Assembly (NCBI GenBank): GCA_021234155.1
Contig: JAJEKV010000005.1
Coordinates: 26,692,620 to 26,756,619 of the forward strand
DNA from: Isoetes taiwanensis
Taxonomy: Eukaryota > Streptophyta > Lycopodiopsida > Isoetales > Isoetaceae
Direction: 5' to 3'
Length of the DNA: 64,000 nucleotides
A program made the translations under genes and the position numbers. Each line of letters begins with the position of its first letter. The stretch's first letter is position 1. This document shows positions 26,700-55,706 of the stretch, one piece after another. The notes beneath the pieces were generated by a model. That model was not told the DNA's origin, searched no databases, and saw only the letters and a program-made list of their open reading frames with translations.

Positions 26700-26872
26700 G
26701 GAATGCACAGTCTTGACAGAGAAGGAAATGAAGGACTACATGGAAAAGATTCCAAACAAGGCTCTCATTGGGTATTTGTTGTGTCTAGGACACAATAGCA
26801 GACCAGATGTAGCATATATAGTAGAGTAAATGGTGTAACAATCCAAGTAAAGAGCATTGGCAGGCTACTAAG
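26700..26872 (+). pseudogene. pol: Copia-3 RT/RNase H linker fragment
   Basis: Decayed frame with KALIGYLLCLGHNSRPDVAY, equivalent to YR-x-LVG-LLY-x9-RPDI-Y of Copia-2 (9300-9370), then stops. It ends in the conserved HWQA(T)K at the Gypsy-A insertion point. Confidence 0.75.
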
Positions 26873-28522
26873 TGTGACGTCCCCTACTCGTATACGGTGC
26901 TCCCACCGTATACAAACAGGAGTTCATCCCCCATACCAGCTCCACACTGATACAGGGCCCTCCACAATCACTGCACCCGTAACGAGTCCCAGTGGGAAGA
27001 GTGAAGGGGTCATTTTACCCCGTCTCCCTCAGGGCCTACCTAGCTGCGGAAGCGTAAACATACATGTCAGTATACAACATAAACACATACCCACCTCGAA
27101 GGGTGGGGCATCAACATCTGCATAGACAACGATCAGCATCATACATAGGGGTCCTACCCAAGGCTCAGACTCGAAGGGATGACTGACGGCTTGGGTCTCC
27201 AGAGTTCATTGCAGACAGAATTCATGGCAATGGATTTGGCTGGCATAAGAACATGGCATTGGGTTGTCCACTCCATCCGCCCCTCCTGTGCACACTTTGC
27301 AGAGTAGGCTGAAAAGTGTTGGGACCTGACTGTAGCCCGCCGGATGCGTAGCCGAAGGGGCTACATCCTGGGTTGCATCTCCCCAGTTCCGATGGGGCAG
27401 GTAGGGATCTCTCCCTCCAGAGATCTACATGCTGACTCAAGGAGATTAGAGGGCCACTGCCCTTATTCGACTTGAACCCAATGGAAAGTGTACACCACTT
27501 CACGGGTGTCGAGCCCATGCCTTACCCACACTCAGTGGTAAGCCATTAGACCTAGTCACAATGATTCCCGGTAGCACTAACACACCATAGGGATCGTTCG
27601 AGAGTCAGAACATGAACCTCCTTATGAGCCAGTCTGGCCCCTTCACCCACAACCAGGTGTGGTTCTTGTGCACAGGCCGAATCTATAGTGTGCTAGAGAG
27701 GCTAGTCTAGGAGCATCTACTACCAAGCTTTAGGTCTCTACCCCCCTTCCCAATACAAGGAGTTCATAGAGATACATCATCCATATACATCACAGAAGAA
27801 CTAAAGAACTAGATCTAATCTATATCATAGAGTTAGGTTCTTTAGTTAGAGTCTGGTATCTAGAGATCTAGAGGGCTGCTATGGGCAATTTAATAGGCTA
27901 AACCTACTGATTTAATGACTAGAAGATGGTTTAGGCTATTAAATTGACGAAATACCTGATCCTTGAGTTCCTCCTCCTGACCTGAGCTCAACCATCCTGC
28001 TAACCTGTTCGAATCAAGGGAAACTAATGGGGCAATTCGCTCGACCAGAATGCACTGAGGCGGTTTTGACCCACCGGTAGTCAAAACAGAGCTCTAAAAC
28101 CCTAGAAACGAAAAATGGGCAAGTTAGGGTTTCCCTTCCTAAATAGACAAGGGGGTGGTCAGGGTTTCCAATTATCCCCTTTTGGCATGTGGGATAATTG
28201 GGAATGGGCCCACTTGCCTTTAATGGCTAGGTGGCAACATGTGCCCACATGGAAAGGTGTGCCCACATTAATGTGCACATTGGAAAATGTGCACATTAAT
28301 TGCACCTTGGGTATGGCCCACTTGGCATAAAGTGTCCACATGGGAAAATGTGCACCTAGATTAATGTGCACATTAATAAATGCACGCTCCTTGCAAGTTG
28401 CCACCTAGGGGCTACCCTTTGGCTATCTACGTTCTACCGTCGGTCGGGGTGGCGTGTGCTGCGATTTAGGGTAGTACAAGATATCGTCCTGGGACCGTTA
28501 TCTTTGGCTTTGGAACGTCACA
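26873..28522 (-). repeat. Gypsy-A 3' LTR
   Basis: 1650 bp, nearly identical to 42894-44556 except for a few sharply divergent patches (about 27285-27359, 28047-28085, 28422-28515) and a missing 13-16-bp repeat near 28373. The ACATTAATGTGCACATT words at 28260-28380 form tandem TGTGCACAT subrepeats. Confidence 0.95.
26890..26913. promoter_or_regulatory. LTR-end hairpin
   Basis: GTATACGGTG and CACCGTATAC form a perfect 10-bp stem with a 4-base loop, 17 bases inside the LTR end. The other LTR has the same hairpin at 42911-42934. Confidence 0.75.
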
Positions 28523-28535
28523 TTCTCCCCACCTT
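28523..28535 (-). promoter_or_regulatory. Gypsy-A polypurine tract
   Basis: On the minus strand AAGGTGGGGAGAA directly precedes the 3' LTR (TGTGACG). A second AAGGTGGGGAGA lies about 50 bases upstream (28563-28576), so the tract is partly duplicated. Confidence 0.8.
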
Positions 28536-28576
28536 GGAATGATGCTGTCCGCAGCATCGTGGGTCTCCCCACCTTG

Positions 28577-29388
28577 GAAACTTCCTAACCTGCAATCAAC
28601 CTGATACCTACGATATACTACTATAATACTTACACATTTACTGAGATTACCTTAAGGTAATATTTTTAAAACATTATTACGCCCTTAACTTATAAAATAA
28701 CTTATCAATCTATAACATCGTCAAACAAGTTACTCCACAATTCACATATCACGACAATTTAGTTTATCAAAACTTTAAATTAACGTTTGAGGTACTCTTC
28801 ATTCCTTGCAACACATTCTAACAAAATGTGTGTTGCAAGTCTTCGTAGCTCGACCTCCTTGCCCTCCGGAGCGCTCTATTGGCCTGCAGGTTGACACTAC
28901 GTTAGTACCATTTAATAATTATTAATAAAAATTTTTGGTTATATGGTGACCACCCCACCTATCTACATGAATGCATGGCTAATCTCCCGGCATAGGAAGA
29001 GGGTGAATCTTCCATTATGGCCGTGGAGACAGCGCCTATATGCCGCTCATGCCTACACCCTAGTTGCCCAGCGTGGAGGATAGGTCCTTCCGTATATGGG
29101 CGTGAAGGCCAGATTCCTCCTATCAAAGCATATATGGGGCTAGAGGTGCTTTTCCTATCAATGCATTTCTCAATGACCTCCTTTCTCTCGAGGTCGTCTA
29201 CTTTCGTGGGACAGAAGTAGACTTTCTAATCTACCTTCCACTCGTCCAAGCGGAAACGCGGTCATGCCTACATTGACATTACACCACGCCCTAGAGATCA
29301 CCGTAGTGGTCTCATCATCGGTAACAACGCATGCGACCCATACCTAGCATAGGTTGCATGCGTAGATTAATCTTAACTATACATAGAA
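28577..29388 (-). other. Gypsy-A 3' untranslated region
   Basis: Between the chromodomain stop and the 3' LTR. No coding pattern recognised. Confidence 0.55.
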
Positions 29389-29880
29389 TTAATCTACACA
29401 AATCGACATGCCTGAGCCGATTTCTTCGGAGATGACCTTGCCGTCCCATTGCTCCATGAACTGTGGGTACTGCTTTACTAGATCTTTCTTAAGTACCCAT
29501 GTTGCGTCTTCCACTGGCAAGTGTTTCCACTTGACCAAGTATTGGAGGAACTCCGACCTCCTTGTTTTCTTGAAAGCTTTATCAAGAATCAATTCTGGAA
29601 CTATTTCCAGCTGCTCCTCCGTCATTTCCAACAACGTTGGAGTGTCCAAGACTTCGTCTGGATTTGGGGTGTGCTTCTTCAACAAACTCACGTGGAAGAC
29701 CTTATGAATCTTTAGGTGTGCTGGCAAGTCTAATCTGTAGGATTGATTACCTACTCTCTGGACTATTCTGAAGGGTCCAGCCCACCTTGGAGCAAGCTTC
29801 TTGCAATTCCCGATCCTGAGCTTCGCCTGCTTCACCTTGATCTTCAGCCAAACATCGTCGCCGACTTGGAACTCCCTGGC
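29389..29880 (-). pseudogene. pol: Gypsy-A integrase C-terminus and chromodomain
   Basis: The frame reads GNCKKLAPRWAGPFRIVQRV, YRLDLPAHLKIHKVFHVSLL, then a chromodomain: PELILDKAFKKTRRSEFLQY, LVKWKHLPVEDATWVLKKDL. In chromoviruses this C-terminal domain steers integration to chromatin by binding modified histone tails, classically H3 K9me. The tryptophan of the KWK motif is kept, but the first cage position and the third do not look aromatic, as in the group of plant chromodomains with a reduced cage. Related to the remnant at 2768-3160. Confidence 0.9.
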
Positions 29881-29910
29881 TGTTCGATGCTTGTCGGCTA
29901 TGCTCTTTTG

Positions 29911-30486
29911 TCAACTCCTTGCTGCTAGCAGATATCCTCGAACTTCTTCCACGAGCTGCTGCATGTCGGCCAACATCTGCTGCAAAACTTCTACCTTTGA
30001 CACGGGGTTGTGCCAAGTGTCTGGAGTTAGGCATTGATAGCCGTAATTGATCATAAACGGCGACATTTGGGACGATTCCTGCTTGGTGCTATTATATGCA
30101 AACTCCACCAAGTGAATAAATTCTTCCCACATACTTTGCTTATTCCAGACATAGTTTCGTAGCATGTCCTCCAAAATTCTGTTGGTCCTCTCCGTTTGGC
30201 CATCCGTCTGAGGATGATATGCCGTGCTCATGGATAGCTTCGTCTGAATGGTCGCAAAGAGGTCTTGCCAAAAGGCGCTCATGAACTTCGGATCCCTGTC
30301 GGAGATGATCTCCCTTGGCATGCCGTGAAGTCTGAAGATCTCTTTGGTGAAGAGCTTTGCTGTATCCATAGCCGTATCTGTGGTCCTGCAAGGCACAAAA
30401 TGTGCCATCTTTGACAGCTTGTCAACCACTACCATCAAGGCATCCTTCCCTCTTACTGTCCTTGGAAGCCCTGTGATGAAATCCAT
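29911..30486 (-). pseudogene. pol: Gypsy-A integrase core
   Basis: rve-type core: MDFITGLPRT (first D), EIISDRDPKFMSAFWQDLFA (second D) and AYHPQTDGQTERTNRILEDM (catalytic E). The frame is offset from the RNase H/zinc-finger frame at about 30490 and stops at 29911, with the C-terminus in another frame, so the polyprotein is broken here. Confidence 0.92.
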
Positions 30487-31506
30487 GCTGATCCTCCCAC
30501 TTAGCGTTTGGCACCGCTAATGGTTCTAATGCTCCTGGAATTCGAAGCTGCTCTGCCTTCGTCTGCTGGCATAGCTGACATTCCTTAATGTATTTAGCTA
30601 TCTGCTTCTTCATTCCTGGCCAGAAATAGCTGCTTCGAATCTTGAAATAGGTCTTTATAAAACCCGCATGCCCGGCTATTGGGCTGTTGTGCGTGTCATG
30701 AAGAATTAGCTTCCTTACCCCTGATGATTCGGGCACGCACAACTTATGCTTATGATACAACAGGTTGCCTTCCTTCTTATAATGCTTGAAGGCTTCCCGT
30801 TCTTTATCTGTTCTAGCCTCCCTAGAGAGGCTTTCCCATACTTCCCTGAAATCCACGTCCGTTGGCAAGGACTCTTCAATCTTCTTATCAAAGTCGCTGG
30901 AGAGCGTCGAAATTGCATTGCAGTGCACTCTAGTTGTCAGGGGATGCCTTGAAAGCGCATCCGCTACCACGTTGAGCTTTCCTGGTTTGTAGACTATATC
31001 AAAGTGATACTCTTCCAGGAACTCCATCCACCTTCTCTGCCTCAGGTTGAGGTGTGGTTGTGTGAATACATACTGGAGGCTCTGATGGTCTGTATCCAAT
31101 TGGAACTTCCTTCCCAAAAGGTAATGCCTCCAAATTCTTAATGCCCTGACAACCGCAAGCAATTCCTGATCGTGCGTGGGGTAGCGCGTTTCGGCGTCGT
31201 TCATCTTCCTGGAATCGTACGCTACCACACGCTCTTCTTGCATAAGCACTGCACCTGTAGCTATCTTACTCGCATCTGTTGCTACAAGGGGCGGTTGTTA
31301 AAGCTTCCTTCAACAATTCAAACCCTGCTTGGGCTTTCTTGTGCCAATGCTCTGCCCAATCTTTTACCTATTCCGCCCTCGTCAAGTCTGTTAGCGGGGC
31401 CGCTATCTTAGCAAAGTTCTTCACGAACTTTCTGTAGTGCCCTGCTAGGCCGAGAAAACTTCTGACTTCATGCACATTCTTCGGTACCGGCCATTGAATC
31501 ACTGCT
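30487..31506 (-). pseudogene. pol: Gypsy-A RNase H and integrase zinc finger
   Basis: RNase H: VVAYDSRKMNDAETRYPTHD, ELLAVVRALRIWRHYLLGRK, DTDHQSLQYVF, and the tether ending VVADALSRHP. HHCC zinc finger: LHDTHNSPIAGHAGFIKTYF ... CQLCQQTK (about 30560-30670). The first part of RNase H is out of frame between 31250 and 31506. Confidence 0.9.
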
Positions 31507-33015
31507 TCAAATCTTGGCAGGATCTGTTGAAATTCCTTCTGCTGATATCACATGACCTGGGTATTCCACCCTCTCTGTTGCGAAGTGACACTTCGACAAC
31601 TTGGCGTACAACTGGTGCCTCTTCAACTTTTCCAGCACTCTCCTTAAGTGTTGTACGTGTTCTTCAAGGGATCTGCTATACACCAAAATGTCGTCAAAGA
31701 ATATAATCACAGAGGTGTCTAAAAACTCCCTGAAGATGTCGTTCATGAGCCTCATGAACGTCGCGGGGGCGTTCGATAAGCCGAAAGGCATTACCGTGAA
31801 ATCATAATGCCCATACCGCATTCTGAAGGCGGTTTTATGGATATCTTCCTCCTTTATCCGGATCTGATGATAACCTGACCTTAAGTCGATTTTGGAGAAG
31901 GCCTTTGCACCTTGAAGCTGATCCATCAGGTCATCTGATTTGGGTAGCGCATACTTGTTCTTAATAGTGTGCTTATTCAACTGCCTATAGTCTATGCACA
32001 TCCTTAAACTGCCATCCTTCTTCTTAACAAACAGGATGGGCGCTCCGAACGGCGAGACGCTGGGTCTAATGAAGCCTAGGTCGAGTAACTCCTGCAATTG
32101 CTTCTTTAGCTCCGTTAGCTCCTGCGTCGTCATTCTGTATGGAGCCTTACTTGTCGGCTTTGTTCCCGGTTCGAGTGCTATCTCGCACTCGACTCCCCTA
32201 TAAGGAGGGAGTTGCTTGATCTCATCTGGAAAGAGATCATGGAACTCCGTGATCAGGTTAGCTACCTGCTTAGGTAACTTGCTGAGCCCCTCATCCTCCT
32301 TACCTTCTTCTGGCTCCGGCTCTTGGATCTCAAGCTTGAAGATATAAGCTACCTGCTCACTCCGTATGCACTTGAGCATCCGTTTAGAAGACATACACTG
32401 CATGATGGGAACAACTTCCTTACCTGTGATCTCAATGATCTTGCCGTCTGGCGTTGGGAAGGTCACCTTCCGCTTCCCACAATCGATGATGGCCCCTGCT
32501 GGTCCAAGATACTCCATTCCTATAATCAGGTCATACTTGCCAATGCCCATTACCTCTGCCCCCATCTGGATATTAATCCCTGGCAAGTCGATGTCGAAAA
32601 TAATTCTCTTGCCTGCCGTTTGCCTTACTGCTCCACTTGCTAAGAGAACGGGCCTCGGCTTCGACTTTAATGGTTTCAACTTCAACATTTCAACCATTCT
32701 GGGGGATGCAAAGTTATGGCTACTTCCTGAGTCTATCAAGACTATGAAAGACTTGGCCTTGGCCTTCCCTACTGTGGAAATTACTTTATACTGGCTCTCT
32801 GCTTGCTCTGTGTCTATTGCGGCAAAGATATGACACTCACCCTGGATGTAGTCGCGGGCTGCCTCGCCGCCGTCGTCGGACAGGATGTCCCAATCTCCCA
32901 ACTCCGCTAGCGCTGCGCTCATGACGTAGGGGCAGTTCACTGTCCTATGGCCTGCCTGGCTTGTCCTTGAAGGACACCTGCTTTTTCTCCTGCTGCTTCC
33001 CCTGATTGCCACCAT
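31507..33015 (-). pseudogene. pol: Gypsy-A protease and reverse transcriptase
   Basis: Aspartic protease [15 protein letters not shown] (intact DSG). [62 protein letters not shown] (catalytic D), [38 protein letters not shown] (FDD box). It ends early at a stop after TDPAKI because of a one-base shift at about 31510; the expected continuation is in the next frame. The N-terminal HRTVNCP is the tail of a zinc knuckle whose first cysteines are not visible, so gag and pol overlap or a deletion has occurred at about 32960. Confidence 0.92.
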
Positions 33016-34093
33016 ATGGGGCTCTAGCTGGACCTGGGTTGGCTGCCCTAGGGCTATAGCTCCCTGTTGCCTTGCCTTTGTCCTGATAATACTGCTGCCT
33101 CTGCCCGCTATTCTGAGGCCATGTTCCTTGCAAACTTATTGCCTTGGACTCTGCTTCTGATATTGTCTTAGGGTTTATTGCCCTTACAAGCTTGCGGATC
33201 TCATCATTCAGCCCCTCAATATAGCTTTCCACTGCATGCTTTTCGCCCAACTTTGGCACATAAAGCCTTAGCCTCATGAATTCCTCTGTATATTTCTGGA
33301 CTGATTTGTTGCCTTGCTGCAACCTGTAGAACTGCTGCATCATGCTGGACTTGTGCTCTCTCGAGACGTAGTGGCGCTTGAAGGCTTTAGCAAACTTCTT
33401 GAACCTGTAAGCATCCCTGCTCAAGCCATGGGCCTTTGCATACCCTTTCCACCAAATGCGTGCTGCTCCTTTCAGGTTGGCTGTTGCCACCCTGCCTTTA
33501 TCCTTGTCCTTCATACCATAAGCGTTGCCATATTCACTCATCTCATCGAGCCAAGCCTCTGCCTCCATGCCCGACCTATTCTCGCCTGAGAATTGCTCGA
33601 GCTTCCTGGCCTTCCAAACATTTTCCAATGCGGAGTCTACCTTCTTCTGGTAATCAGAGGTTCTTGTGTCCTTTTGTCGTCCATCTGTGGTATCCCTACC
33701 TTCCATCTGCAGTGTTCCTCTGCCTTCCATCTGTTCGGTCCTGGGCCTGCTCTTCCTCTTCCTCGGTCGGTCCGAATCCCGGACTTGAGTCGGAGGATTC
33801 CGAGCTGGAGGACCTCCTTCTCTTGCTCCTCTTCTTGTCCCTTCCTGTTTTTTTCGAGCTGATGCTTGAGGCAAGCGGCGTTGCCCACCGAACACTGCTC
33901 CTCAGCATGCGGCCCGGCCCGGGGCCTTTATCTGCTCAAGGTCCGTTCTCATCTGTGATATTTCCTCTTCTGGGGTGATGGGTCCAAATTCCTCAAACAG
34001 GTTCCTTGTCGGGGGTGGCCTGGGCGGACTCTGTTCTTCCATATGGTCTCGGCATTGTCGTTCCCCTGAGCCTAGGCCTCTAGCTGCATACAC
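32945..34093 (-). pseudogene. gag: Gypsy-A gag
   Basis: Capsid with the Retrotrans_gag layout: FSGENRSGMEAEAWLDEMSE, LKGAARIWWKGYAKAHG, FKKFAKAFKRHYVSREHKSS, QFYRLQQGNKSVQKYTEEFM, AVESYIEGLNDEIRKLVRAI. It probably starts at 34093 (MYAARGLGSGERQ, then LFEEFGPITPEEEISQMRTD). Frame changes occur near 33905 and 33700, where a Ser-rich stretch (KRRRSSSSESSDSSPG) is found in another frame. A short duplicated segment (GGAAGGCAGAGGAACA-type and its variant) near 33690-33730 explains one shift. Confidence 0.88.
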
Positions 34094-34295
34094 AAGTAAT
34101 TCATGGCTATATGGTTAGTTTTAGCTTGTTCTCTTGCATTATTCATGTTTGTTGGTATAGTTGTGGGACAAAATACATCAACAAAACATTTAAAGTGCCA
34201 AGGAAATTATATTCATATATTATATAATATTTTAGTACAAAAAGTCTCCGGGATCAAGAGTCTAACTAATCTGGAAATCGCCGGTAAGATGGGTT

Positions 34296-34354
34296 GTCCT
34301 CAAGGAACTTCTTAACTTGGGTCGTTCCTACGAATGACCCAAGTTCCTGAGGAC
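34296..34354. repeat. Hairpin between gag and the upstream frames
   Basis: AACTTGGGTCGTTC (34314-34327) pairs with GAATGACCCAAGTT (34332-34345) with one mismatch and a 4-base loop. GTCCT (34296-34300) and AGGAC (34350-34354) extend the stem. It is unrelated in sequence to the 67-bp palindromes. Confidence 0.7.
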
Positions 34355-35198
34355 GCTTGCTGACGAGCCGCCCTGCAAGGCTCTCGCCAAGTCTTCCACT
34401 CTGCGGTCCGATGTGAGGGCCGCGGTCACCGCCAATCTCGCCTGCCGTCGATGAGGTATGGCGAAGTCGAAGAGGTCAAGTGCCATTGCTCTCTTGACTA
34501 GGGCGGACATAGTCGACATTTCGCGCTATTCGAGCATGCTGCCGAAGCACGAGAATGCAATAAGCATGAACACTCCTTCTTCACCGGGGGCTGAACTTGC
34601 GATTAATCGACCGCTATTCTCCCCATCCAGCGGCCCGAGGCATGTAGTACCTCGGCGACACTGTGGATTGTGTGTTCTGGCGGCTTCTCGCTTGTTTGGC
34701 CTCGGCTCTATGCGCCGGCGTACTCAATCAAACCTCTATCTCAGTCAGATCCCGGTAGTCTTCAATTGTGGAGTCGACTTGCCTGAGGTCGATTCTTGCT
34801 CCTCTTGTCGGGGGTGGTGTCGAGGGACTCGGCATCAGGATGCTGGTGGCCTTGCCTCTGATCCCCATCCGTTCTGAATGGCGAGGAACTCTTCTTGGAT
34901 GGCGGTCTCCGGTCTCCATAACACATCTTATCTTTCTTGTAGGCTGGATATCAGAAGTCGACTCCCCAGTGTAGGTGTCGGCTTCTCGCACTTGAAGCGG
35001 AAAGTTCGAGACTCCCCGGACGATGAAGTCGTCCAAGTCGAGGACTACCCGTAGTTGGTGGAAGCAGTTCATCCAATCCGGACTCCCCTCCACCTGCATT
35101 GGGGAGGTTACGGATGTCGGCGAGGGAGTAGATACTCCTCTCCGATATATGATAGGGGCTAGGCTTGTGATGCCTAGCCCAAGTGGGGAGCAACTCAC
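34328..35198 (-). other. Unassigned frames upstream of Gypsy-A gag
   Basis: Minus-strand frames: one reads WMNCFHQLRVVLDLDDFIVR and VREADTYTGESTSDIQPT (35100-34950), another reads ALDLFDFAIPHRRQARLAVT and SDRRVEDLARALQGG (34490-34350). Both look protein-like but are separated by stops in all frames. A splice-acceptor-like TTTCCCCAATGCAG-type site lies at about 35090. I do not recognise a family. They may be broken parts of the same extra gene as the frame at 35199-35854. Confidence 0.3.
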
Positions 35199-35854
35199 GA
35201 TGATGCAACCTCTGCCTTTCGAGGGTTGACCAGCTCTTCTTCTGCTTGTCGCCGTTCCTCCTCTGAGTCTAGCTCGGTGTACTCTTCGTCGTCCGACTCT
35301 TCTTCTTCTTCTCTTCCTTCTTGCTCTTGCTGGTACTGCAAAAGCATCTGCTCTTCGGCTTGGACTGCTATGGGGTCCACCTCCATCGGAGGGATAGAGG
35401 TTGCCCCCATTAGGTTTTCGACACGGTGGGATAGGAAAATAGCTAGGGCGGCGGTGTAGGAGAAATACTTGGTCCTGTTGGCTGTCAGGACCATGTAGTC
35501 TGGCAGCCTCTGCGCCTTGTTGGTTAAGTACTTGGCGATGTTCGGGACATCACCCAAGGCTGTTTGAAGGGATGGGCGGGGAACAAAATATCCTATGCAA
35601 GGGGGAACCTGAACGAGGGAGGATCCTACCCTAGCTTGGAACTCTGCTAAGACTTGTCTATATGCTGGGGTTGCATTCAGCGTGGCTTGGATATCAATTT
35701 CTCTCCCAAAGACTCGGAAGATGTCATTGACATCCGCCTCGGCAGCATGGGCACTGGCGCTGTACCATCGCCTGAAGTCAGCAGTGGCCATTGACCTAGC
35801 GAAGAAGGGAGTATCAAACAGATGCAGAAGCGCCTCAGGGAGCTGGAAGATCGC
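35199..35854 (-). pseudogene. Unknown extra gene of Gypsy-A, possible internal exon
   Basis: About 218 codons open on the minus strand, beginning AIFQLPEALLHLFDTPFFAR and continuing MATADFRRWYSASAHAAEAD, VNDIFRVFGREIDIQATLNA, KYLTNKAQRLPDYMVLTANR. The C-terminal tail is acidic (EGREEEEESDDEEYTELDSE). The open part is bounded by CTGCTTAG|GCG upstream and TCATC|GTGAGT downstream, both good splice sites. It could be an exon, or an intact ORF starting at the internal Met (35791) and stopping at TGA 35195-35197. It lies in sense between the H3-like gene and gag. No family recognised. Confidence 0.5.
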
Positions 35855-36104
35855 CTAAGCAGTGGAGAGCAAACTTGCAGGGTGCTAATTGAGAAATGGG
35901 GGACCTATTTATAGAAAAGGGGAAAACCCTAATTTTTGGATAACCTAGAATTTGCTGGGACTGGGTGATTCTGACCTATTAAGAGGTGCAACTGAGAGTT
36001 TGAAGACTAGCTTTAGGGTTTGAGCATGCTAAGATGGACTAATGAACATATTGCAACAAATTGGAGATCATTTGGATATGGCATGGTGACAAAAATGCTG
36101 AGAG

Positions 36105-36171
36105 GTCTCACACGTTGCGCCCAGACCGATAATGAAAAGTTCATTTTCTGCCCTGGCGCGACGTGTGAGAC
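36105..36171. repeat. 67-bp palindrome, copy 1
   Basis: Starts GTCTCACACGTTGCGCCCAG and ends CTGGCGCGACGTGTGAGAC. Two 32-base arms pair at about 27 positions around the loop AAG. Identical in the loop variant (AATGAA/TTCATT) to copy 3. Confidence 0.9.
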
Positions 36172-36314
36172 ATGGGCTCTAAATGGGCTAAACTTGATCA
36201 ATTTGGGTAATCTAAGGCTGTAATTCTACTGAACTCGTCGAGTTAGGCAGAATTGACAATAGGGAATAGGAAGAACAATAGGGAATAGGAATAGGGACAA
36301 TTGAACTCGTCGAG

Positions 36315-36452
36315 ATGGCAATAGGGAAAGTGGAAGAACGGGTGCAGGTGGTGGAAGATACAGAGGTGGAAATTCGGAAGAGGATGGAAGAGGTAGAAAA
36401 AGAAAAAGCGGAAATCATACAAAGGTTGGTGATATTAGAAAAGCAACAATAG
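36315..36452 (+). pseudogene. LINE-C ORF1 coiled-coil segment
   Basis: 46 codons, MAIGKVEERVQVVEDTEVEI then RKRMEEVEKEKAEIIQRLVI, a heptad-rich coiled coil ending in TAG at 36450-36452. It corresponds to the coiled coil of LINE-A ORF1. The rest of ORF1 continues in other frames. Confidence 0.6.
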
Positions 36453-36560
36453 ATCTAGATGCGTGGCAGAGTTTTGATAGGATTAAACCGCACATAGTGG
36501 AGTTCAAAGAACAGGAAAGGATTAAAGTTGATATAAGATTGATAGGAGTAGCCGAGAGGC

Positions 36561-36591
36561 CTAACGAAGACACGTTTCGTGTCTTCGTTAG
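36561..36591. repeat. Perfect 31-bp palindrome in LINE-C
   Basis: CTAACGAAGACACG (36561-36574), TTT, CGTGTCTTCGTTAG (36578-36591): a perfect 14-bp stem with a 3-base loop inside the ORF1 region. The frame changes at this place, so the inverted copy may be what broke it. Confidence 0.9.
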
Positions 36592-38498
36592 AGATAATGG
36601 AGAACGTGTTTCAGGAACACAGGAATGTGATAGTGAAAGCAGCACGGGCAGGAGCTTGGAGAGGGAGAGCGAGACATATAAATGTGACTATGAGAGACCT
36701 GGCAGCCAAAGAAAGGATCATCCACGCAGGGTTCAAACTCAGGAATGGACTCAAAGTACAAGAGGCCCTGACACCCATGCAGAGACAGGGGTTACACAGA
36801 GAACTGAGTTGGGCAGGAGTACAAGCAGGGGTAAAGAATGGGAAACTATACCTCAAAAGAGGAAGGGAGAACACATCGCAAGAACCGGCAACGCAGAAGG
36901 ATGGAATGGACCCGCAGGGGCCGAGGGGAGATGGGAATCAAGAAATGGAGGTAGTGAGAGGGCAGGGACAGCTGAAGCAGATGAGGAAAATAACACCATC
37001 CCGAGCAATGCCAAGGAAAACAGCCCCAAAGATTCTAACACAAACACATTTAGGATGGGGAAACGGAAAAGAGGTCGGAAGGGACCTAGACAAGAACATA
37101 AAGCTGACAAGGGAGAGAGTGGGGAGATCAGGGAGCAAGAACGAGAGGGCAGCTAAGGAAAGGACACGTAATAGAGCGGGGGCCGGGGGCGAGAAAAGGA
37201 AGGAAAAAGTAACGATCTGGTACTGGAACTGTACGGGATATCCATGGGATGATGGAGAACGCCTAAACGAAGCAAGAGACAAGGACATCATATGTCTAGT
37301 AGAGACATGGGAACACAGCACAAAGAGGCTACCAGATGAACCAGGCTACACATTGTTCACTTGTTGGAGGGAAAAGAACTACAAAATAGGAAGGGGTAGC
37401 CTTGAGGGGCTAGCCCATTACATTAGAAATAGCGATGACGTAAAAGCATGTATTTTGGAAAATGACATTAATAAAAGATACATGCTTATAAATGTTGTGT
37501 TGATTGATTGCAGAAATCTGTATTTGCTAATAGTATACTATCCGCCCCAATGTGATAAACTGGAGCTATTAAGCATGGGAGAGATCGTCATGAGACATAG
37601 GGATAAGGGAATGTTGATCATAGTGGGGGATATTAATGCGAGGACGGGACAGGAACAATCACATAAAGCAGGGATAGACAACGAGAGTAGACAGTGGACC
37701 CAAACTATAAGAGGGAAGGAATGGCAGCGGGACACGGTAGACGAAGTGGAGATGACAGCAAGAGGAGAAACACTGTTGGAGGTATGTACAGCGACAGATA
37801 CAATTATATGCAATGGTTTAAGAAGATGGGAGGAGTCAGGTCAATTCACAAGCAGCAGCATAGTAGACTATGTGATAGCAAACGAGGAAGCAATAAAGGA
37901 AATCAGAAAGATGGAATTAGGGGAATGGCCGATAGGAAGGAGGGAGGGGCACAGACCTATATTGCTCAAGATAAATGTGACAAGAGGAAGAACAGATGGC
38001 GAGCAAGGAAGAGGTAAGCGGGCCGAGATAACAATTAAATTCAGAGAAAACAGAGTGGGAACGTTCATAAAAAAGGTACAAAAGGAAATAAAAGCAAAGG
38101 AATGGGGAGAGGGAATGAAAGACAGAGGGAATGATATGAACGACATCTTGGAGGAAGCAGCTAGAGTGGCATTCGGGAGAAGAGAAAGAGGAAAGAGGGC
38201 AATAGCATTTCGGAGGTCAACATGGTTTGATGAAGGGTGTATGGAGCAACGAAGGAAAGCCAAACAGGCAAAAGGGACTGAGGCATACCAAGAGGAACGC
38301 AGCAAGTATGTGAAAATTCTGAAAAGAAAGAGAACCCAGGACCTGAAAAACCATCAATGGGGATTGGCCGAAGACCTGAAAAGGAGACCTAAGGTATTCT
38401 GGAACAATATGAAAAGGGGCTCAAAAGCAAAAGCAGGTACACCAAAAGGGGAGGAGGGGAGAAGAACGGAAATAGAAATAGGTGGACAAGATACCTAG
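36579..38498 (+). pseudogene. LINE-C ORF1 C-terminus fused to EEP endonuclease
   Basis: 639-residue open frame. Residues 1-190 match an ORF1 C-terminal part (AAKERIIHAGFKLRNGLKVQ, AGVKNGKLYLKRGRENTSQE). The endonuclease follows in the same frame: VTIWYWNCTGYPWDDGERLN (N), CLVETWEHSTKR (E), LLIVYYPPQ, LIIVGDINARTGQEQ (GD-N), SSIVDYVIANEEA (D) and GHRPILLKIN (H). The EEP-RT linker contains PKVFWNNMKRGSKAKAG. In LINE-A the two parts are separated by one in-frame TAG, so ORF1 and EEP may be one polyprotein in this family. Confidence 0.85.
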
Positions 38499-39590
38499 AA
38501 TCGGTTGTACAAAAGCAGAGTGCACCAATCATGGACCCGAAGGTAGACACAAACCCCTTTCTCCCGGGAAGAAGTGACATGGACCTTTGAATAAAATGGC
38601 AAACAACAAGGCTCCGGATCTATATGGGCTAACAAATGAAAATCTTTGAAGTCGCGTAGGAAACAGAGATAATAGGGATTATAACAAAAGTATTCAATGA
38701 GATAGTACATTTGGGTCTTCCGAAAGATGGCGGTTTAACAAGGTAATCCCGCTCCACAAAGGAGGAGACAAGGAGGAACCGAGCAATTCTGGGGACTATT
38801 ATGGTCAGCTCAATATTCGCGAAATGGTTCGGAAAACACCGGACCAAAAGCGAAAAACGGGGCGAAGCGGGGAAGCTCGAGAGCACAAGGTCAAGCGGGT
38901 TTTTCACCGGGAGTATTCGACTACGAGACCATTTGGTGACTCTAAGGATAATGATAGAGCGCACAAAGGAGAATAACAAGAAGATCATATCTTTGCCGTG
39001 GACTTTAAAAAGGCCTTTGACCAAATTGCCTAGGGATAAACTTCTACTTAGGCTAATAGGGCTAAAAGCACCGGAAGGGCTAGTAGGATCAATCGCAAGG
39101 CTATACCAAAAAGGTGTATGCCAAAACAAAGAGAGGGAGAAGAAGCCATAGAATGTGATCTGAGGAGTTAAACAAAGGCATCCATTATCGCCAACACTAT
39201 TTGGGATATATATAGATGCACTACGAAATTTGTCGGGGAAAGACAAGGGAGGCAAAGTGAGGCACCAATGATAGGGGAAAACAAAAGTCCCAATAATGCT
39301 ATATGCGGATGATTTGGGTATGATGGCGACCAAAGCCAAAGGGATGCAGAATCTTTGGAAATACTAGAGGAATTTTGTGAGGAGACGGGGGCCCGGCAGT
39401 CAACACAGGAAAAACAAAAATAGTGACCTTGGCACAAAAGATAAAACACAAAGCCATTTAGATACAAGGGGGAGGAACTAGAGGAAGCCACGGGATACGT
39501 GTATCTAGGGTACGACACACACATGAGGGGGGGGGAGATGGTCAAAAGGAGCGGATACAGTTTCAAGCGGCAATAGGCAATTACTACATC
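38499..39590 (+). pseudogene. LINE-C reverse transcriptase, heavily frameshifted
   Basis: RT motifs are spread over all three frames: SSGFFTGSIRLRDHLVTLRI (compare GFRMNHSTLDHLVTLRV in LINE-A), GVKQRHPLSPTLFGIYIDAL and IMLYADDLGMMATKAKGMQN (YADD). At least five shifts. Confidence 0.8.
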
Positions 39591-40400
39591 ATGATGAATT
39601 ATTGCAACAACAACAGGATCACCAATTGGGAGATCAAAGCATACCTATTCAGCACGTTAGTAGCATCAACACAATTGTACGGATGCGAGACATGGGGACC
39701 AGGCCTGTCAGAAAAGAAGTGGGAAAAGCAGGAAGGCATACTGAGGCAATGGCACGGACAGGAATTCCAGGTGAAGACAGGTACATCACTGGCAACAATC
39801 TTATATGAAACGGGGGAAAAACCAATGGAAGTGAGAGCCTGGGAAAGAACAATTAGATACCTAATAAAGGACAATAGCTATGGGAAAGAGGACAAACTGT
39901 CGTCACTAGCGATAGATGAATCAGCAAAACAGCACATAACAACGGGCAAGGGATGGTTTAACGAATTGGCCAAATGGACTGACAAGTATGGGGATGCAAC
40001 TAAGTCGATCATACAAGCGTAAGAATGGGACCGAAGAATGGACCGACAGTGGCAATGAGAAACCTGGTCCGGGCGCGGCACACAGGCCCAAGGCAAAGCG
40101 GCTATTGGAAACCTTCAACCCGGGGGACAGATAGGGCATGTCACATACAAAAGCGGCGAAGTTGAGTAAGAGTAAAGTGGGAACGCGGCGATTCAGGATG
40201 GGAAGCCATGACCTCCGAATTGAGAAAGATAGATGGAGGAAAATAGATAGAGCAGAGCGAATATGTCGAGTATGTGACTCAGGAAAAATAGAGGACGAAG
40301 AGCACATGGTAAAGGAATGCCCGTTTACAACGATATAAGGTCCAAATTTGACAAGGTCGGTGGGATCTCCCACTCCCAAAGACGATGGACAAAGAAGAGA
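39591..40400 (+). pseudogene. LINE-C C-terminal domain with zinc knuckle
   Basis: TLVASTQLYGCETWGPGLSE and QEFQVKTGTSLATILYETGE match the LINE-A C-terminal region (GVQVKPIMLYGSPVWGPGLS, CCMMLAETGMLPLEVEALCR). From 40138 the frame carries TRRFRMGSHDLRIEKDRWRK and the knuckle CRVCDSGKIEDEEHMVKEC. Confidence 0.82.
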
Positions 40401-40791
40401 CACTCACGGATATAGCGAAAAGCTATAAAAGAAATGATAATAAGACACCTGGGGGTGCACAAGAGAGAGGGCTAATAATCGAAAAAAGCACGTATGAGGC
40501 TAGGATCGAGTAGCCCAAAAAGTCTGATTCAAAACTGTTTATAACGATGCATTTGTGTATGGCCAAGAAGCCAGCTATAAGCACGATGCGGGTAATATAT
40601 AAAGAACAAGTGAAGCCCGCTAGATGGCTACATAAAACCTATGCGTCTGTTTGCTGGAAGCACCCTATGGGAGCTCGCAGGATGCTACATAAGTCCGGGG
40701 GCCTCACGGCCTGAGGGACGTTAATGTATATTCTATTCTATTCTATTCTATTTGGTCGATTTGGAGCAGTTTTGGGCATTTTTGGGGCATG

Positions 40792-40858
40792 GTCTCACAC
40801 GTTGCGCCCAGCCCGAAAATGAGATTCTCATTTTCTGTCCTGGCGTGACGTGTGAGAC
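40792..40858. repeat. 67-bp palindrome, copy 2
   Basis: Same ends as copy 1, with the inner stem changed to GAAAATGAG/CTCATTTTC. It lies about 145 bases downstream of the H3-like stop. Confidence 0.9.
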
Positions 40859-41002
40859 ATCGTCTCACTTTTGCTCAAAAACTCCAATTTGACCAAAACA
40901 AAAACTAGAATTCAATATCTTAACCTGATTACTCAAGGTTGTACACATTATTTACACAAAAATTCTTTATATTAACAAAAATTTTATTATTTACAAAAAA
41001 GT

Positions 41003-42219
41003 TCAAGGGCGTTCTCCCTTGATGTGTCTGGCCAAATGCATATCCTGTCTCATAAGTGTAACCCTCTTCGCGTGAACTGGCATGCGGTAGTGAATCCTCA
41101 AAATCTTTGCACTATTTTAAGCCTCTGCTGCCTCCTGTAAAGCAAGACATTTCATCGGTCCGCCGCGATGTCCGCGTGTTGTACTCTGGATGACTTCTAA
41201 CCAAGCGTTGAAAGCGGTGCCGGGGGATCAAGAGTCCAGAACCCATTTGGAAGTGCCGGATTTCCTTGAGAGCTCGTTCTCCAACTTCTTCCCGCTGGTC
41301 CGCTTCTTTCACCGGTGCTGCGGGAGGCTTGGGCCCGGTGGTGGCGGCCGGGGGTTTGACCTTTAAATCGGGCGTCCGCCTTCAATTGTTCTCACCCTGT
41401 GCTCCTGGTAGTAAGCGTTGTATGCCTCCCACTTCGCCATGAATGCATTGTGTTCCTTCAGCCTCTTTTGATAGACCTTGACGGGGTCTATCATATACGC
41501 CTCCCGTTGTGGCCGAGGGGCTTTAACCCTATCCCACGTCGGAAAAGGTGGGGGCTTCGGCGCTTGTCCGGACTGCTCTTGCTCAGGTGCCACCTGTTCG
41601 GGTACTTCCTTCTCCACGACCGGGGGTTTTGAAGAGTTTGCCCCCTCAGTGTTGGGGACGTAATCTTCATCCGAGTCGTCGGTTGTGGGCGGGGTCTCAT
41701 TGCCTGATGGTTCGTTGATGGCGATACCCTGCCCTCGCTTACCAACCTTCACAACTCTTCTGGGGCCCGCCTTAATGCCTTTGGCCTTCTTCCTTTTCGG
41801 CTCGCCGGCTGTGGTAGGCTCGTCCTCCCGTCTCTTCGTCCTCCTCTCCCAGCGGCGCTCTTTGGCCTCATACTTGCTGATGAACGCCGCGAGGTCTGCT
41901 TCTTCAGCAGGGCTAAGCCTCGACGGGCCCAAGCCTCGAGTTGCTCCTCGACGGTCGGCTGCCCTATCTGCTCCCGTTCCTCCCTGCTCCTCCTCTCCTC
42001 TTCGGCCATCTCTTCGAGAATCTGCTGCATAACGTCCGGCCGCCCCTCGCCTATGACCTCCGTCTGGTCGCTCCGGTCCGATCCTGCCTCCTCGCTGGAA
42101 GAAGATTCGCCTTGCCGGAAAAGGCATTCTTGGAGTATCCTCTGAATGAGGGCAGGGTCGCTGGCGCTGGGTGATCCGCGTCGGCGGGGCTTCCTAGCAG
42201 TCTGCTTTGTGCGGGCCAT
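41003..42219 (-). pseudogene. Histone H3-like gene carried by Gypsy-A
   Basis: Starts ATG at 42219 in a good context (CAAATATGG) and reads MARTKQTARK, identical to histone H3 through K9, then PRRRGSPSASDP. About 260 residues without similarity follow, rich in E, R, K, P (EEMAEEERRSREEREQ, KRKKAKGIKAGPRR, TTDDSDEDYVPN). H3 similarity resumes: KPPAATTGPKPP (H3 KSAPATGGVKKP), ALKEIRHFQ (ALREIRKYQ, 41247-41273), LLI, RFQRLVR (PFQRLVR), ALQEAAEA (identical, 41120-41143), HAKRVT (identical, about 41054-41077) and LARHIKGER before TGA (LARRIRGERA). Frameshifts at about 41930, 41370, 41195, 41118 and 41077 break it; the first coincides with a repeated TCGAGGCTT 16 bases apart. It lies in sense between primer binding site and gag, so it belongs to the element or was captured by it. 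Confidence 0.85.
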
Positions 42220-42410
42220 ATTTGACGGTTCGCCGATGCGTGCTATGCGCCAGAAGATCGCCTTGGCAAACGAGAGCGAATTTCCTAAGGAGGGGACACG
42301 GAAATGGAGGGGGGGGGGTCTAGATCTATTTATAGGGTCGATTTTAGGTCAAATTCCAAACTACCTTTTTGGGTTGCCTAAAACATCTAAAACACCTAAA
42401 TTTAAGCAAG

Positions 42411-42477
42411 GTCTCACACGTTGCGCCCAGACCGATAATGAAAAGTTCATTTTCTGTCCTGGCGCGACGTGTGAGAC
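42411..42477. repeat. 67-bp palindrome, copy 3
   Basis: Differs from copy 1 at a single base (TGTCC for TGCCC in the second arm). It lies about 190 bases upstream of the H3-like start codon. Confidence 0.9.
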
Positions 42478-42611
42478 ATGGTGGTTCCCGCTATTAAATT
42501 TTATACTTTCTAGCATATAACATATCAATTTTACTATTTCTTAGCTCAAAATTAGAATTATCAAGTTATTTTTCCGTAATTTATGACTTTTTGGTGTGTT
42601 TCAAGCTGAAT

Positions 42612-42678
42612 GTCTCACACGTTGCACCCAGCCCGATAATGAGATTCTCATTATCTGTCCTGGCGCGACGTGTGAGAC
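42612..42678. repeat. 67-bp palindrome, copy 4
   Basis: Inner stem GATAATGAG/CTCATTATC pairs fully. It lies between copy 3 and the primer binding site, in the element leader. Confidence 0.9.
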
Positions 42679-42880
42679 CACCCCTTTTTTTGAAGGTTGG
42701 CTCACCAATTTTGTCTTTTTTTTTTTTTATGTTTTCATTCATTTTAACTGTTACTAGCTTAGCATAAACTAAAAAAATGAGAAAAAAAAAATTTCCCCAT
42801 TTTTCGAGGGTTGAGAATCCTATCAAGTTAGTACTACTGGGAGCATGGTCAGTGCTTTGCTCTTGGTCTCCAAGAACATT

Positions 42881-42892
42881 GACCTGATACCA
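42881..42892 (-). promoter_or_regulatory. Gypsy-A primer binding site
   Basis: On the minus strand TGGTATCAGGTC starts one base after the 5' LTR end. It resembles the tRNA-Met site of the Copia elements but differs at its 3' end (GGTC for GAGC). Confidence 0.85.
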
Positions 42893-42893
42893 C

Positions 42894-44556
42894 TGTGACG
42901 TCCCCTACTCGTATACGGTGCTCCCACCGTATACAAACAGGAGTTCATCCCCCATACCAGCTCCACACTGATACAGGGCCCTCCACAATCACTGCACCCG
43001 TAACGAGTCCCAGTGGGAAGAGTGAAGGGGTCATTTTACCCCGTCTCCCTCAGGGCCTACCTAGCTGCGGAAGCATAAACATACATGTCAGTATACAACA
43101 TAAACACATACCCACCTCGAAGGGTGGGGCATCAACATCTGCATAGACAACGATCAGCATCATACATAGAGGTCCTACCCAAGGCTCAGACTCGAAGGGA
43201 TGACTGACGGCTTGGGTCTCCAGAGTTCATTGCAGACAGAATTCATGGCAATGGATTTGGCTGGCATAAGAACATGGCATTGGGTTGTCCACTCCATCCA
43301 CCCCTCCCCGCACACTTTGCGAGTAGGCTGAAAAGTGTTGGGACCTGGATCAGAAGCGCACGGATCGTGGCCAGAAGGGGCTACATCCTGGGTTGCATCT
43401 CCCCAGTTCCGATGGGGCAGGTAGGGATCTCTCCCCCCAGAGATCTACATGCTGACTCAAGGAGACTAGAGGGCCACTGCCCTTATTCGACTTGAACCCA
43501 ATGGAAAGTGTACACCACTTCACGGGTGTCGAGCCCATGCCTTACCCACACTCAGTGGTAAGCCATTAGACCTAGTCACAATGATCCCCGGTAGCACTAA
43601 CACACCATAGGGATCGTTCGAGAGTCAGAACATGAATCTCCTTATGAGCCAGTCTGGCCCCTTCACCCACAACCAGGTGTGGTTCTTGTGCACAGGCCGA
43701 ATCTATAGTGTGCTAGAGAGGCTAGTCTAGGAGCATCTACTACCAAGCTTTAGGTCTCTACCCCCCTTCCCAATACAAGGAGTTCATAGAGATACATCAT
43801 CCATATACATCACAGAAGAACTAAAGAACTAGATCTAATCTATATCATAGAGTTAGGTTCTTTAGTTAGAGTCTGGTATCTAGAGATCTAGAGGGCTGCT
43901 ATGGACAATTTAATAGGCTAAACCTACTGATTTAATGACTAGAAGATGGTTTAGGCCATTAAATTGACGAAATACCTGATCCTTGAGTTCCTCCTCCTGA
44001 CCTGAGCTCAACCATCCTGCTAACCTGTTCGAATCAAGGGAAACTAATGGGGCAATTCGCTCAGACAGAATCTGGGAGGCGGTTTTGACCCCTGGGGTAG
44101 TCAAAACAGAGCTCTAAAACCCTAGAAACGAAAAATGGGCAAGTTAGGGTTTCCCTTCCTAAATAGACAAGGGGGTGGTTAGGGTTTCCAATTGTCCCCT
44201 TTTGGCATGTGGGATAATTGGGAATGGGTCCACTTGCCTTTAATGGCTAGGTGGCAACATGTGCCCACATGGAAAGGTGTGCCCACATTAATGTGCACAT
44301 TGGAAAATGTGCACATTAATTGCACCTTGGGTATGGCCCACTTGGCATAAAGTGTCCACATGGGAAAATGTGCACCTAGATTAATGTGCACATGGTTAAA
44401 TGTGCACATTAATAAATGCACGCTCCTTGCAAGTTGCCCCCTAGGGGCTACCCGCCTGGATATACGTCGGCGTACATGTCAGTCGGGGTGGCGTGTACGC
44501 GTGACGAGGCAGTACAGTATACGTCCTGGGACCGTATACTGTGCTGGAACGTCACA
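42894..44556 (-). repeat. Gypsy-A 5' LTR
   Basis: 1663 bp. Terminal hairpins at both ends: GTATACGGTG/CACCGTATAC at 42911-42934 and ACAGTATACG/CGTATACTGT at 44514-44542. It contains an extra TGTGCACAT unit at 44391-44406 not present in the other LTR. Confidence 0.95.
44514..44542. promoter_or_regulatory. Second LTR-end hairpin
   Basis: ACAGTATACG and CGTATACTGT form a perfect 10-bp stem with a 9-base loop (TCCTGGGAC). In the other LTR (28479-28506) the loop is the same but the arms read AAGATATCG and CGTTATCTT, which still pair at 8 of 9 positions. Confidence 0.7.
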
Positions 44557-44561
44557 CTAAG

Positions 44562-45590: not shown

Positions 45591-46394
45591 AAATTCTTAG
45601 AAGACCATATAGACCAGGGCACTTGTCTTTCTTTAAAAGAAAAGCAGGTGAATGTAAGTCATTAATGATAATATCTAATTCTAGGTGTGGATGTTTCTGC
45701 GACGATACTATGGGGTGCACCTTTGACAAAACTGCAGATTACGTATCCTCCTAAAAAGGCCATTGATGTCTAGCAAAAAAGAAAGAAAAATGGTCGTGGA
45801 AAGACTGTTTCAACTGAATTATCTCAGAAACCTTCGAGCCATTAAGCTAAATAAGGAAAAATAACAGAGGCCATCATATGCCTTCTCTATCTTAGCAGCC
45901 CAGAAAAAGGAGTGACAGGATTTATCACCAGATCTTAACCATTCTTAACCAACTTTTATCCTATCTTGGTTCACGTGAGTTGTCTCAATGGCTTTAATTT
46001 CTGTCGATATTGCTTTCTCCCTAATACCAGAAGAAGGAGCAAAAGAGTGACATCTCTGTAACTCTTGATACACCCAGTAATTGGCCTCTAGCTTGTGTTA
46101 CCTATACATGACAGCACGAGAGAATTCATAAGACTAGATATTCCTATAACCTGCAATAAATTCATCATCCTTTAGATGTTTAGTATTAAGCTTGAAATAA
46201 GTTTTGGTAGCTCTTCGACAAAGAGGTTGCCCATTAGAGAACTGTTGTGGATTATGATATGATACTGCACTATCCAACAAATAATTCTCCATAAGTGAAG
46301 AAAACTAGTAGCAATAATATTATAATAGCCTCGATCATCTCGGGCATAAGCTCTACCATTGCATGTCCATCCATTGCATCGTCTGAAAGTTTGA
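45591..46394. other. No gene assigned; one unrecognised frame
   Basis: No recognised gene. A minus-strand frame at 46172-46453 (YLQDHDCGFVEIDGDQTFRR, CNGWTCNGRAYARDDRGYYN) looks more like protein than its surroundings and could be a stray exon. I cannot name it. Its 5' part overlaps segment A of the inverted duplication. Confidence 0.3.
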
Positions 46395-46851
46395 TCTCCA
46401 TCAATCTCTACAAAACCACAATCATGATCCTGGAGATATGATCCCAGTGACAAGTTTGTATATTCAGATGTAGATTTATATCCATACCTACATGTTTCAG
46501 TTCACTTTTTGAAGGTAAACCAAGCCAGGTTTAATTTTAACGATGTCTCTTGATTTTTTTCAAGATGGGAAAAGTTAGACTCTAGATTGCATCATTGCGT
46601 AAAAGACGTGCAGGTATTTAAAAGATTGATAGGTCAGTTTATCATTTTTGCTGATAAAATGAGTTACTACTCTGTTGAATATCAGAGTCATCATACTCTA
46701 CTAGGATAGCAATAGCTCCTCCGTCAAATGCTTGGCGCCCCACGTTTTACTTATTTCAGCAATATATTTTGATAGTTTTGATGAATTTAAAATTTTATAT
46801 ATCAAAGAGAACATCGTGGCATTTGCTTCAATAATATTGCTAATGATACAA

Positions 46852-47313
46852 TATAACAATCAACACACAACTACCATTAACATTATTAACACAAACCATT
46901 GCATTTAACACATTTTAATTAAAATCCCCCTTAAACCCCCTTTGGTTTGGGTGCATATTCACATGGGGGGTTACTCCTGGCATCGAGAGCTGTCGGATGG
47001 GCATATTTGGTCTGTATTCCTTGATCTGGACCGTACATAGCGATCCTCGTTTGTGGGGTATGCATGTACAAGTTTTTGTATACTGTATATTGAGATTTGT
47101 AAAATACTATAAGGTTTGAGAGAATGTACTTAATGGTGTTAATTTTGTACATGTATTGTAAATATATTTATGGGGCTCTCGCTGCCCTACGTAACCCCCC
47201 GTGTGAATATGCACCCAAACCAAAGGGGGTTTAAGGGGGATTTTAATTAAAATGTGTTAAATGCAATGGTTTGTGTTAATAATGTTAATGGTAGTTGTGT
47301 GTTGATTGTTATA
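46852..47313. mobile_element. Foldback MITE, copy 1
   Basis: 462 bp with inverted arms of about 130 bases. TATAACAATCAACACACAAC starts it and its complement GTTGTGTGTTGATTGTTATA-type sequence ends it; the arms also carry CCCCCTTTGGTTTGGGTGCA and its complement. Same family as 52132-52581 and 61498-61588. After the right arm comes AAATTTGGGCC, also found beside the other copies, so the true element end may be further out. Confidence 0.85.
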
Positions 47314-47707
47314 TTAAAAAAAAATTTGGGCCAGAAAAGCAAACATAGGTAAATAAAGCCAGTACCACTAGTTCAAGAAAATCAACTATCAAAATAAATA
47401 CCCCCTTCTATTGTAAACTGTACATTGTCATGCATATGCTAGTGCATATGGTAACATGTGCTGGTATCAATGCAAGCCTGTTTTGCCATGGCAAGCATTC
47501 ATAAGCATATGGCATATGCAAAACAAATTTAATTCTACAAAGAGGGAGCATGAATACAAAAGAAATGGCAATCATACCGACATTGGCCTCCAGAAATAAG
47601 AATATTCATAGGATCAAAAACAAGATATGATTTATAATCATCCCCGAGCTGACAAGATTGCAAATTCTTCTCTGGAAAAACCACATTATGGCAATGTCAC
47701 GGTAGTT

Positions 47708-48241: not shown

Positions 48242-48499
48242 AAGCTGCTGAGGAGAAATCCCTGTTCGGCATATCCTGCAAGACTATTCTCATGATATCT
48301 CTCTGAGCATCTTCTGGCATTCTAACAATTTGCGAAAAAACAGGGCGCACATGAGGCTAGGCATCCCAACCTTGTCATGATTTTAGATAGCGCATCGGAC
48401 ATTCTGGTGGGATTATAGGCCTCACTCCCTATTTACAACAGCCAAGGCTGCCTGCACTGCAGTCATGTTCTAAAATGGGAGGTCATGTTCTGTTCTACA

Positions 48500-55118: not shown

Positions 55119-55121
55119 TTA

Positions 55122-55700: not shown

Positions 55701-55706
55701 TTTTTT

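Follow-up and report, generated by a model that had tools for sequence, protein, structure and literature searches.

A hAT DNA transposon of Pseudocercospora and its relatives carries a captured histone H3, and in P. fijiensis all copies of this hAT-H3 element have been inactivated by RIP (PMC6710886). The bracovirus histone CvBV-H4 was recovered in host nucleosomes, and its action is tail-dependent (PMC9145170). Among plants, orchid Gypsy elements carry a functional AlkB-type RNA demethylase, and when 25,565 consensus sequences of 121 angiosperm genomes were screened, 15 extra domains were detected, with no histone among those that the paper's text names (PMC9289625). Extra ORFs in plant Gypsy elements (PMC9289625) and a captured H3 in a fungal hAT (PMC6710886) are known; the literature that we searched, with most subscription papers and bioRxiv preprints out of reach, yielded no retroelement-encoded histone, and an LTR element with histone cargo as an accessory gene is a class that we have not found reported there.

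Here we describe a chromovirus family of Isoetes taiwanensis that carries a selected, resident H3-variant gene, and we consider it likely that the product acts as an H3 variant in host chromatin. The gene lies at the same place in the element from copy to copy, has many intact frames, is under purifying selection and possesses a conserved TATA-plus-hairpin module. As in the Pseudocercospora hAT, a mobile element captured and multiplied a histone H3 sequence; that carrier, however, is a fungal DNA transposon, whereas the Isoetes element is an LTR retrotransposon with intact frames, selection, a long linker and a promoter-like module (PMC6710886). With CvBV-H4 and giant-virus histones it shares a parasite-borne core histone with an extended N-terminus, but those belong to DNA viruses or virus-derived segments, while the Isoetes histone is an H3, is carried by a retroelement and has its extra stretch inserted between tail and fold; CvBV-H4 is a precedent for a parasite histone that works via its N-terminal tail in host nucleosomes (PMC9145170). 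The orchid AlkB elements are likewise plant Gypsy elements that acquired and kept an extra host-derived ORF, although for another protein than the H3 variant of Isoetes (PMC9289625). Gag, protease, reverse transcriptase (RT), RNase H, integrase with chromodomain, LTRs, primer binding site and target duplication are all shared with described chromoviruses, from which the Isoetes element differs in its length of 17.7 kb and in two pre-gag accessory genes with their own TATA-plus-hairpin modules (PMC2864245, PMC3350952).

The window, that is, the whole stretch of 64,000 nucleotides analysed, contains one 17.7-kb copy of the element on the minus strand, with LTRs of about 1.65 kb each and an internal LINE of about 4.5 kb. 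The 5' LTR (42894..44556, minus) is paired with the 3' LTR (26873..28522, minus); the two are 95% identical (K2P 0.052 over 1646 sites), and the element is bounded by the target duplication CTAAG, left at 26868..26872 and right at 44557..44561 (no strand). The differences between the LTRs comprise about as many transversions (42) as transitions (40), and transitions are fewer than expected for a methylated plant repeat. The 5' LTR is followed by a primer binding site (42881..42893, minus) that we take to be of the tRNA-iMet type, and a polypurine tract lies at 28523..28540 (minus, ends approximate). The Gypsy proteins are all encoded in sense between the LTRs, on the minus strand: a broken gag at 32945..34040 (PF03732, Ty3 capsid), protease and RT at 31507..33015 (PF08284, PF00078), two frames at 29911..31297 that we take to be RNase H and integrase, named by sequence only and matched in other copies, and the integrase C-terminus with a chromodomain at 29380..29910 (PF00385 at 1.5e-10). 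On the strength of this protein set, and of the chromodomain at the end of the integrase, we class the element as a chromovirus. The primer binding site and gag are separated by two accessory genes, the H3-like gene and a second one termed ORF2, and in the window copy by the LINE (36200..40750, plus, ends approximate) as well, which sits between the H3-like gene and gag. The original prediction had placed an H3-like gene in sense after the primer binding site and ahead of gag in a chromovirus with paired LTRs and a target duplication; the LTRs, primer binding site, polypurine tract, CTAAG duplication and chromodomain are all confirmed. As a test for nested insertion, direct repeats flanking the accessory region were sought in the window copy and none was found beyond chance, so the separate later insertion with its own flanking duplications, which would have contradicted that prediction, is not seen there.

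Elsewhere in the window, a probable Copia-type element occupies 5318-10661, with 588-bp direct repeats that are 97% identical and 4.76 kb apart and with Copia-like ORFs, named by eye, between them. A large inverted repeat in several pieces spans 46393-63647, its arms about 95% complementary, with a CYTH-domain gene (57165-58016) between the arms, and a short-repeat cluster with tRNA-like sequence lies at 53237-54234, where ARAGORN reports one tRNA-Lys. The CYTH gene and the plant-like H3 both point to a land plant.

The H3-like gene of the window copy occupies 41003..42219 on the minus strand. Read from 42219 to 41003, the exact H3 tail codons MARTKQTARK (42190..42219, minus) are followed by ALKEIRHFQ, LLIP, RFQRLVR, ALQEAAEA, HAKRVT and LARHIKGERP, and tail, linker and a complete H3 histone fold are all present in order. 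The motifs and their H3 order had been predicted and hold against both the sequence and the shuffle comparison below; the accompanying claim of a single minus-strand frame does not, as the frame changes between the tail and most of the linker and again, several times, within the fold (41006..41285, minus, ERALKEIRHFQ to GERP). In a frameshift-tolerant alignment, canonical plant H3 scored 168 against the last ~490 nt, with 48 of 98 aligned residues identical, while the scores of 25 shuffled sequences averaged 27 and did not exceed 35, and H4 and H2A scored 47 and 40; these values exclude a chance match to H3. With the open pieces joined by X, the window fold is also matched by Pfam Histone PF00125 (2.4e-13) and by PDB H3 chains (1e-14 to 1e-13). 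A homology-aware alignment places 4-6 frame changes within the fold alone, depending on the reference, and a codon model places 3-4 in the whole gene. The H3-like gene of this copy is dead.

To follow the gene beyond the window, we searched the plant's own genome (1.66 Gb) with the N-part of the H3-like protein (156 aa) and obtained at least 153 matches at E <= 0.001, the window copy included, a lower bound because the 150 best of 2313 first-look candidates were scored. From these data we assembled a sample of 48 loci, eight from the search output (L001 being the window copy) and 40 picked for long open frames, three of which are listed with an internal stop. The start pattern used, RTKQ or MARTxQ, was matched in 47 of the 48. 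In 31 of these 47 loci, all within the 40 picked, tail and complete H3 fold are joined in one unbroken ORF of 398-434 aa; having been picked for long frames and a tail-like start, these loci give no share of all copies. MARTKQTARK is exact in 43/47 loci (picked, again, by a tail-like start), and at residue 10 Pro stands in 46 loci and Thr in one; the H3 tail is kept from Met to Lys9 only, and its remainder is not. Two successive ATGs (MMARTKQ) open the gene in 19 of the 47 loci, and use of the first would shift the tail by one residue, off the H3 register.

We then examined both flanks of 10 of the 31 intact copies. A window-type LTR lies upstream of the H3-like gene in 10/10; downstream, on the same strand, gag and protease-RT follow in 10/10, the RNase H part in 9/10, the N-part of ORF2 in 9/10 and more of integrase together with the chromodomain in 8/10, and another LTR falls within the 9.9-kb downstream stretch in 8/10. 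The youngest LTR pairs are those of L011 (K2P 0.0076) and L016 (K2P 0.0079), whose 5-bp target duplications, CTAGC and GATTG respectively, were read from the printed flanks. Other pairs gave K2P values of 0.032 (L025), 0.036 (L039) and, over just 326 sites, 0.048 (L026). The L042 pair (K2P 0.10) may come from two elements, since no RNase H or integrase precedes the LTR there and a leader stands after it. No ages were taken for L019 and L030, where the alignments extend past the LTR (tandem or nested elements), and no second LTR was found for L015 and L009 within the stretch examined. Family copies in tandem or nested, with LTRs shared or abutting, were also observed at L057/L058, L063/L064 and L067/L068. 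The expectation that other copies of the family (Gypsy-A) would carry the gene at the same place is thus borne out in all ten examined, and intact frames occur in 31 of the 40 loci picked for a long frame; with at least 153 genome matches, the frame is no peculiarity of one family member.

Selection was measured over the 465 pairs of the 31 intact copies as pooled pN/pS, with a bootstrap over copies. For the whole gene pN/pS is 0.234, at a median dS of 0.55. The ratio is 0.080 for the fold (bootstrap 0.067-0.096), 0.286 for the linker (0.255-0.319) and 0.021 for the first ten residues (0-0.043), where pS is 0.38, synonymous variation as elsewhere, and where the ratio is partly conditioned by the start pattern, which fixes some residues. 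Fold differences per pair at codon positions 1, 2 and 3 are 4.4, 2.2 and 21.8, and off-frame readings give ratios of 2.2 and 2.6. These results show strong purifying selection on the tail and fold of the H3-like gene, with ratios far below 1, as the original prediction had anticipated.

Each accessory gene is headed by a module in which palindromes B and then A precede a TATAAATA box. Ahead of the H3-like gene these are hairpins B1 (42610..42682, minus) and A1 (42409..42481, minus) and a TATA box TATAAATA at 42327..42334 (minus); the second promoter-like module starts with hairpin B2 (40790..40862, minus) and continues with A2 (36103..36175, minus), 98.6% identical to A1, and a TATA box TATAAATA at 35906..35913 (minus) upstream of ORF2. 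B2 and A2 are split apart by the ~4.5 kb LINE in the window copy. Past the palindromes, too, the upstream stretches of the two genes are alike, with a local score of 62.5 (best of 300 shuffles, 61.6). Among the 31 intact copies, TATAAATA occurs 93-112 nt upstream of the ATG in 30 (within 700 nt), and two or more hairpin-arm motifs in all 31. The H3-like gene thus has a conserved TATA-plus-hairpin module in common with ORF2, and judged by its sequence this module is promoter-like. It was also observed that the window holds four near-perfect palindromes of ~70 bp in the order B-A-gene-B-A-gene, and that two palindrome pair positions, read by eye, differ on both sides between copies.

ORF2 (34270..35791, minus) is broken in the window and has no known domain. 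It is intact in two copies, at 511 aa (L053:7697-9229) and 508 aa, with a pN/pS of 0.216 between them; it has an acidic stretch, and it starts 0.66-0.85 kb past the end of the H3 gene in 9/10 other copies, those with a matched start. For intact ORF2 (P0241) neither Pfam at E <= 1 nor PHROG gave a match, and the PDB gave nothing convincing (best 0.07). A likeness to H2A/H2B seen by eye was unsupported by the Pfam and PDB comparison, and a single-sequence structure model considered beside this question was too poor for use (mean pLDDT 45.7).

The intact protein, of ~417 aa, consists of the exact H3 tail to Lys9, a charged linker of ~320 aa and an H3 fold. A canonical H3 has ~136 aa with the tail joined straight to the fold; at 398-434 aa and with its linker, the H3-like protein is an H3 variant, not a canonical H3. 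The original prediction of a captured H3 gene or retrocopy carried as cargo holds for capture and propagation, but a plain retrocopy does not fit so remodelled a protein. Intact protein P0242 matches both Pfam Histone PF00125 and PDB H3.3 at 3e-27, and the best 60 of its 175 PDB matches are all H3s, with no CENH3; the rest of the protein gave nothing in Pfam at E <= 1. Against host H3, the fold of L016 aligns gapless over 90 residues (52/90 identical), with a loop 1 of canonical length. Plant CENH3 has a longer loop 1, and this loop is the main reason why the fold appears to be of H3 type and not a CENH3. The tree had 83 rows, including eight element folds, 46 RW-type rows and two plant CENH3s; in it, the element folds form one clade (100/100) on a stem of 0.94 changes per column; the clade lies on the H3-type side (88/74), apart from the 46 RW-type rows, with the two plant CENH3s on the same side but on another branch. 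Its exact place is unsure, because columns are few and branches long.

Of 7942 proteins scored in database searches with the composite protein, 1910 matched at E <= 1; the alignments of the 120 listed span 23-39% of the query, for the most part its H3 domain. The fold alone found 181 proteins at E <= 0.001 among 416 (120 listed), while a linker piece, a 254-aa frame partly out of the gene's frame, found none at E <= 0.01 among 1517 candidates. No relatives of the linker, ORF2 or RT were found in IMG/VR, and none of the RT in bacterial and archaeal genome contigs, collections not expected to hold plant elements; a giant-virus origin, for which relatives were sought in IMG/VR, was set aside with this limit.

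When canonical H3 was compared with the genome, the best 150 of 9099 first-look candidates were scored. Fifteen places match the whole length of canonical H3 at 96-97% identity, and the one host-like H3 place read, L072, encodes an ordinary H3 of 136 aa. The other 135 are 71-86% identical, many of them in frames of 400-500 aa. Three of these 135 were read (L069-L071) and represent a second, dispersed family of 409-413 aa proteins that start with MAITKSAPD and carry an H3 fold (PF00125 against L071, 2.5e-41), with an N-part different from that of the element's protein. Their fold is 77/90 (86%) identical to that of host H3 and is the same protein in all three at a pS of 0.09-0.17; whole-protein pN/pS is 0.11-0.21. 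The DNA of this family has no blastn match in the window, and the ~400 nt ahead of its ATG are without the TATA and hairpin motifs.

The main rival to deposition in chromatin is a decoy or structural protein that never enters nucleosomes: the fold would hold H4 or H3 chaperones, or serve the VLP or pre-integration complex, and the tail would titrate H3K4/H3K9 readers and writers by histone mimicry. A constraint that is strongest on the ten-residue tail and the fold and weaker on the linker is consistent with such a role, as are the ~320 aa that separate tail and fold, unlike in normal H3, and the company of ORF2, another accessory protein, which has an acidic stretch. A pure decoy, however, needs the tail only, whereas here the whole fold is constrained and its best matches are nucleosomal H3 chains, and we regard this alternative as unlikely. 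More improbable is a captured centromeric histone that steers the element to centromeres. The short motifs ALKEIRHFQ, LLIP and RVTLMR match Arabidopsis CENH3, to which 51/95 aligned residues are identical, against 48/98 for canonical H3; the centromeric-looking RW-type protist proteins P0121 and P0133 score 197 and 191, above the 168 of canonical H3 (191 and 187 for the H3-type P0123 and P0122), and the PDB list for the window copy's final 54 residues is led by CENP-A chimeras and yeast Cse4. Yet Arabidopsis and maize CENH3 score 157 and 145 in the frameshift alignment, both below canonical H3, and the reading from short motifs is set back by the canonical length of loop 1, in 90 residues gapless to host H3, and by the PDB ranking of the intact copy, whose best 60 rows are all H3s. 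The separation of the element clade from the 46 RW-type rows (88/74) is weak evidence, as the two plant CENH3s fall on the same side, and the trees do not decide between the two readings.

Selection might instead have acted in the host, on a long-tailed H3 gene that was captured recently and is merely carried, and a single host source gene could have been missed, since the best 150 candidates per query were scored. Copies at a median dS of 0.55 nevertheless keep a fold pN/pS of 0.08, so the constraint acted while the element copies diverged; the 15 best host-like H3 places are full-length and 96-97% identical to canonical H3, with L072 an ordinary 136 aa protein, and the promoter module, hairpins and ORF2 are common to the copies. 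We hold this reading to be very improbable. The last alternative, pseudogene cargo, in which dead host sequence was trapped by one element or inserted separately later, might be suggested by the broken window copy, in which homology gives at least six frame changes where the indel rate of the LTRs predicts 2.6 (P 0.05). The lesion density of that copy, however, resembles that of gag-pol in the codon model (P 0.33-0.52, no excess), and no flanking duplication was found; at the level of the family, the intact frames in 31 of the 40 picked copies, the shared place in 10/10 and the strong purifying selection refute it, and the probability that we leave to it is negligible.

Deposition of the H3 variant in chromatin is favoured because the whole fold, and not the tail alone, is constrained. 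The H3-like gene would be transcribed from its own promoter and its product translated apart from gag-pol; the protein would then enter the nucleus, pair with host H4 through its fold, and be built into host chromatin or held by H3 chaperones, displaying its ARTKQTARK tail to readers of the host and of the element. Normal pairing with H4 is likely rather than proven, because the fold is far diverged (52/90 against host H3). Pro10 instead of Ser would remove the Ser10 phosphorylation site beside Lys9; that it may also weaken recognition by some Lys9 enzymes is a point that we count against deposition. The likeliest benefit would be local chromatin control at the element's own DNA or at future sites, which could take the form of relief from H3K9-based silencing or of a docking tail supplied for the chromodomain of the element's own integrase. 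A broader proposal, which we put forward tentatively and hold to be possible rather than probable, is histone piracy: the chromovirus H3 in host chromatin would set the state of the element's own insertions or targets, and a second, unrelated repeat family would separately have fused an H3 fold to another N-part, making this a repeated strategy in the plant.

Hosts silence retroelements by chromatin marks, above all on H3K9. A retroelement that makes its own H3, keeping the Lys4-Lys9 stretch, and has a chromodomain integrase would attack or exploit silencing via the substrate itself. With the H3-like gene, nature provides a case in which a nucleosome part encoded by an element can be put to the test, and the element opens a new source of unusual H3 variants among plant genomes. 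Taken together, the findings suggest that a parasite of the genome has come to provide a chromatin protein of its own.
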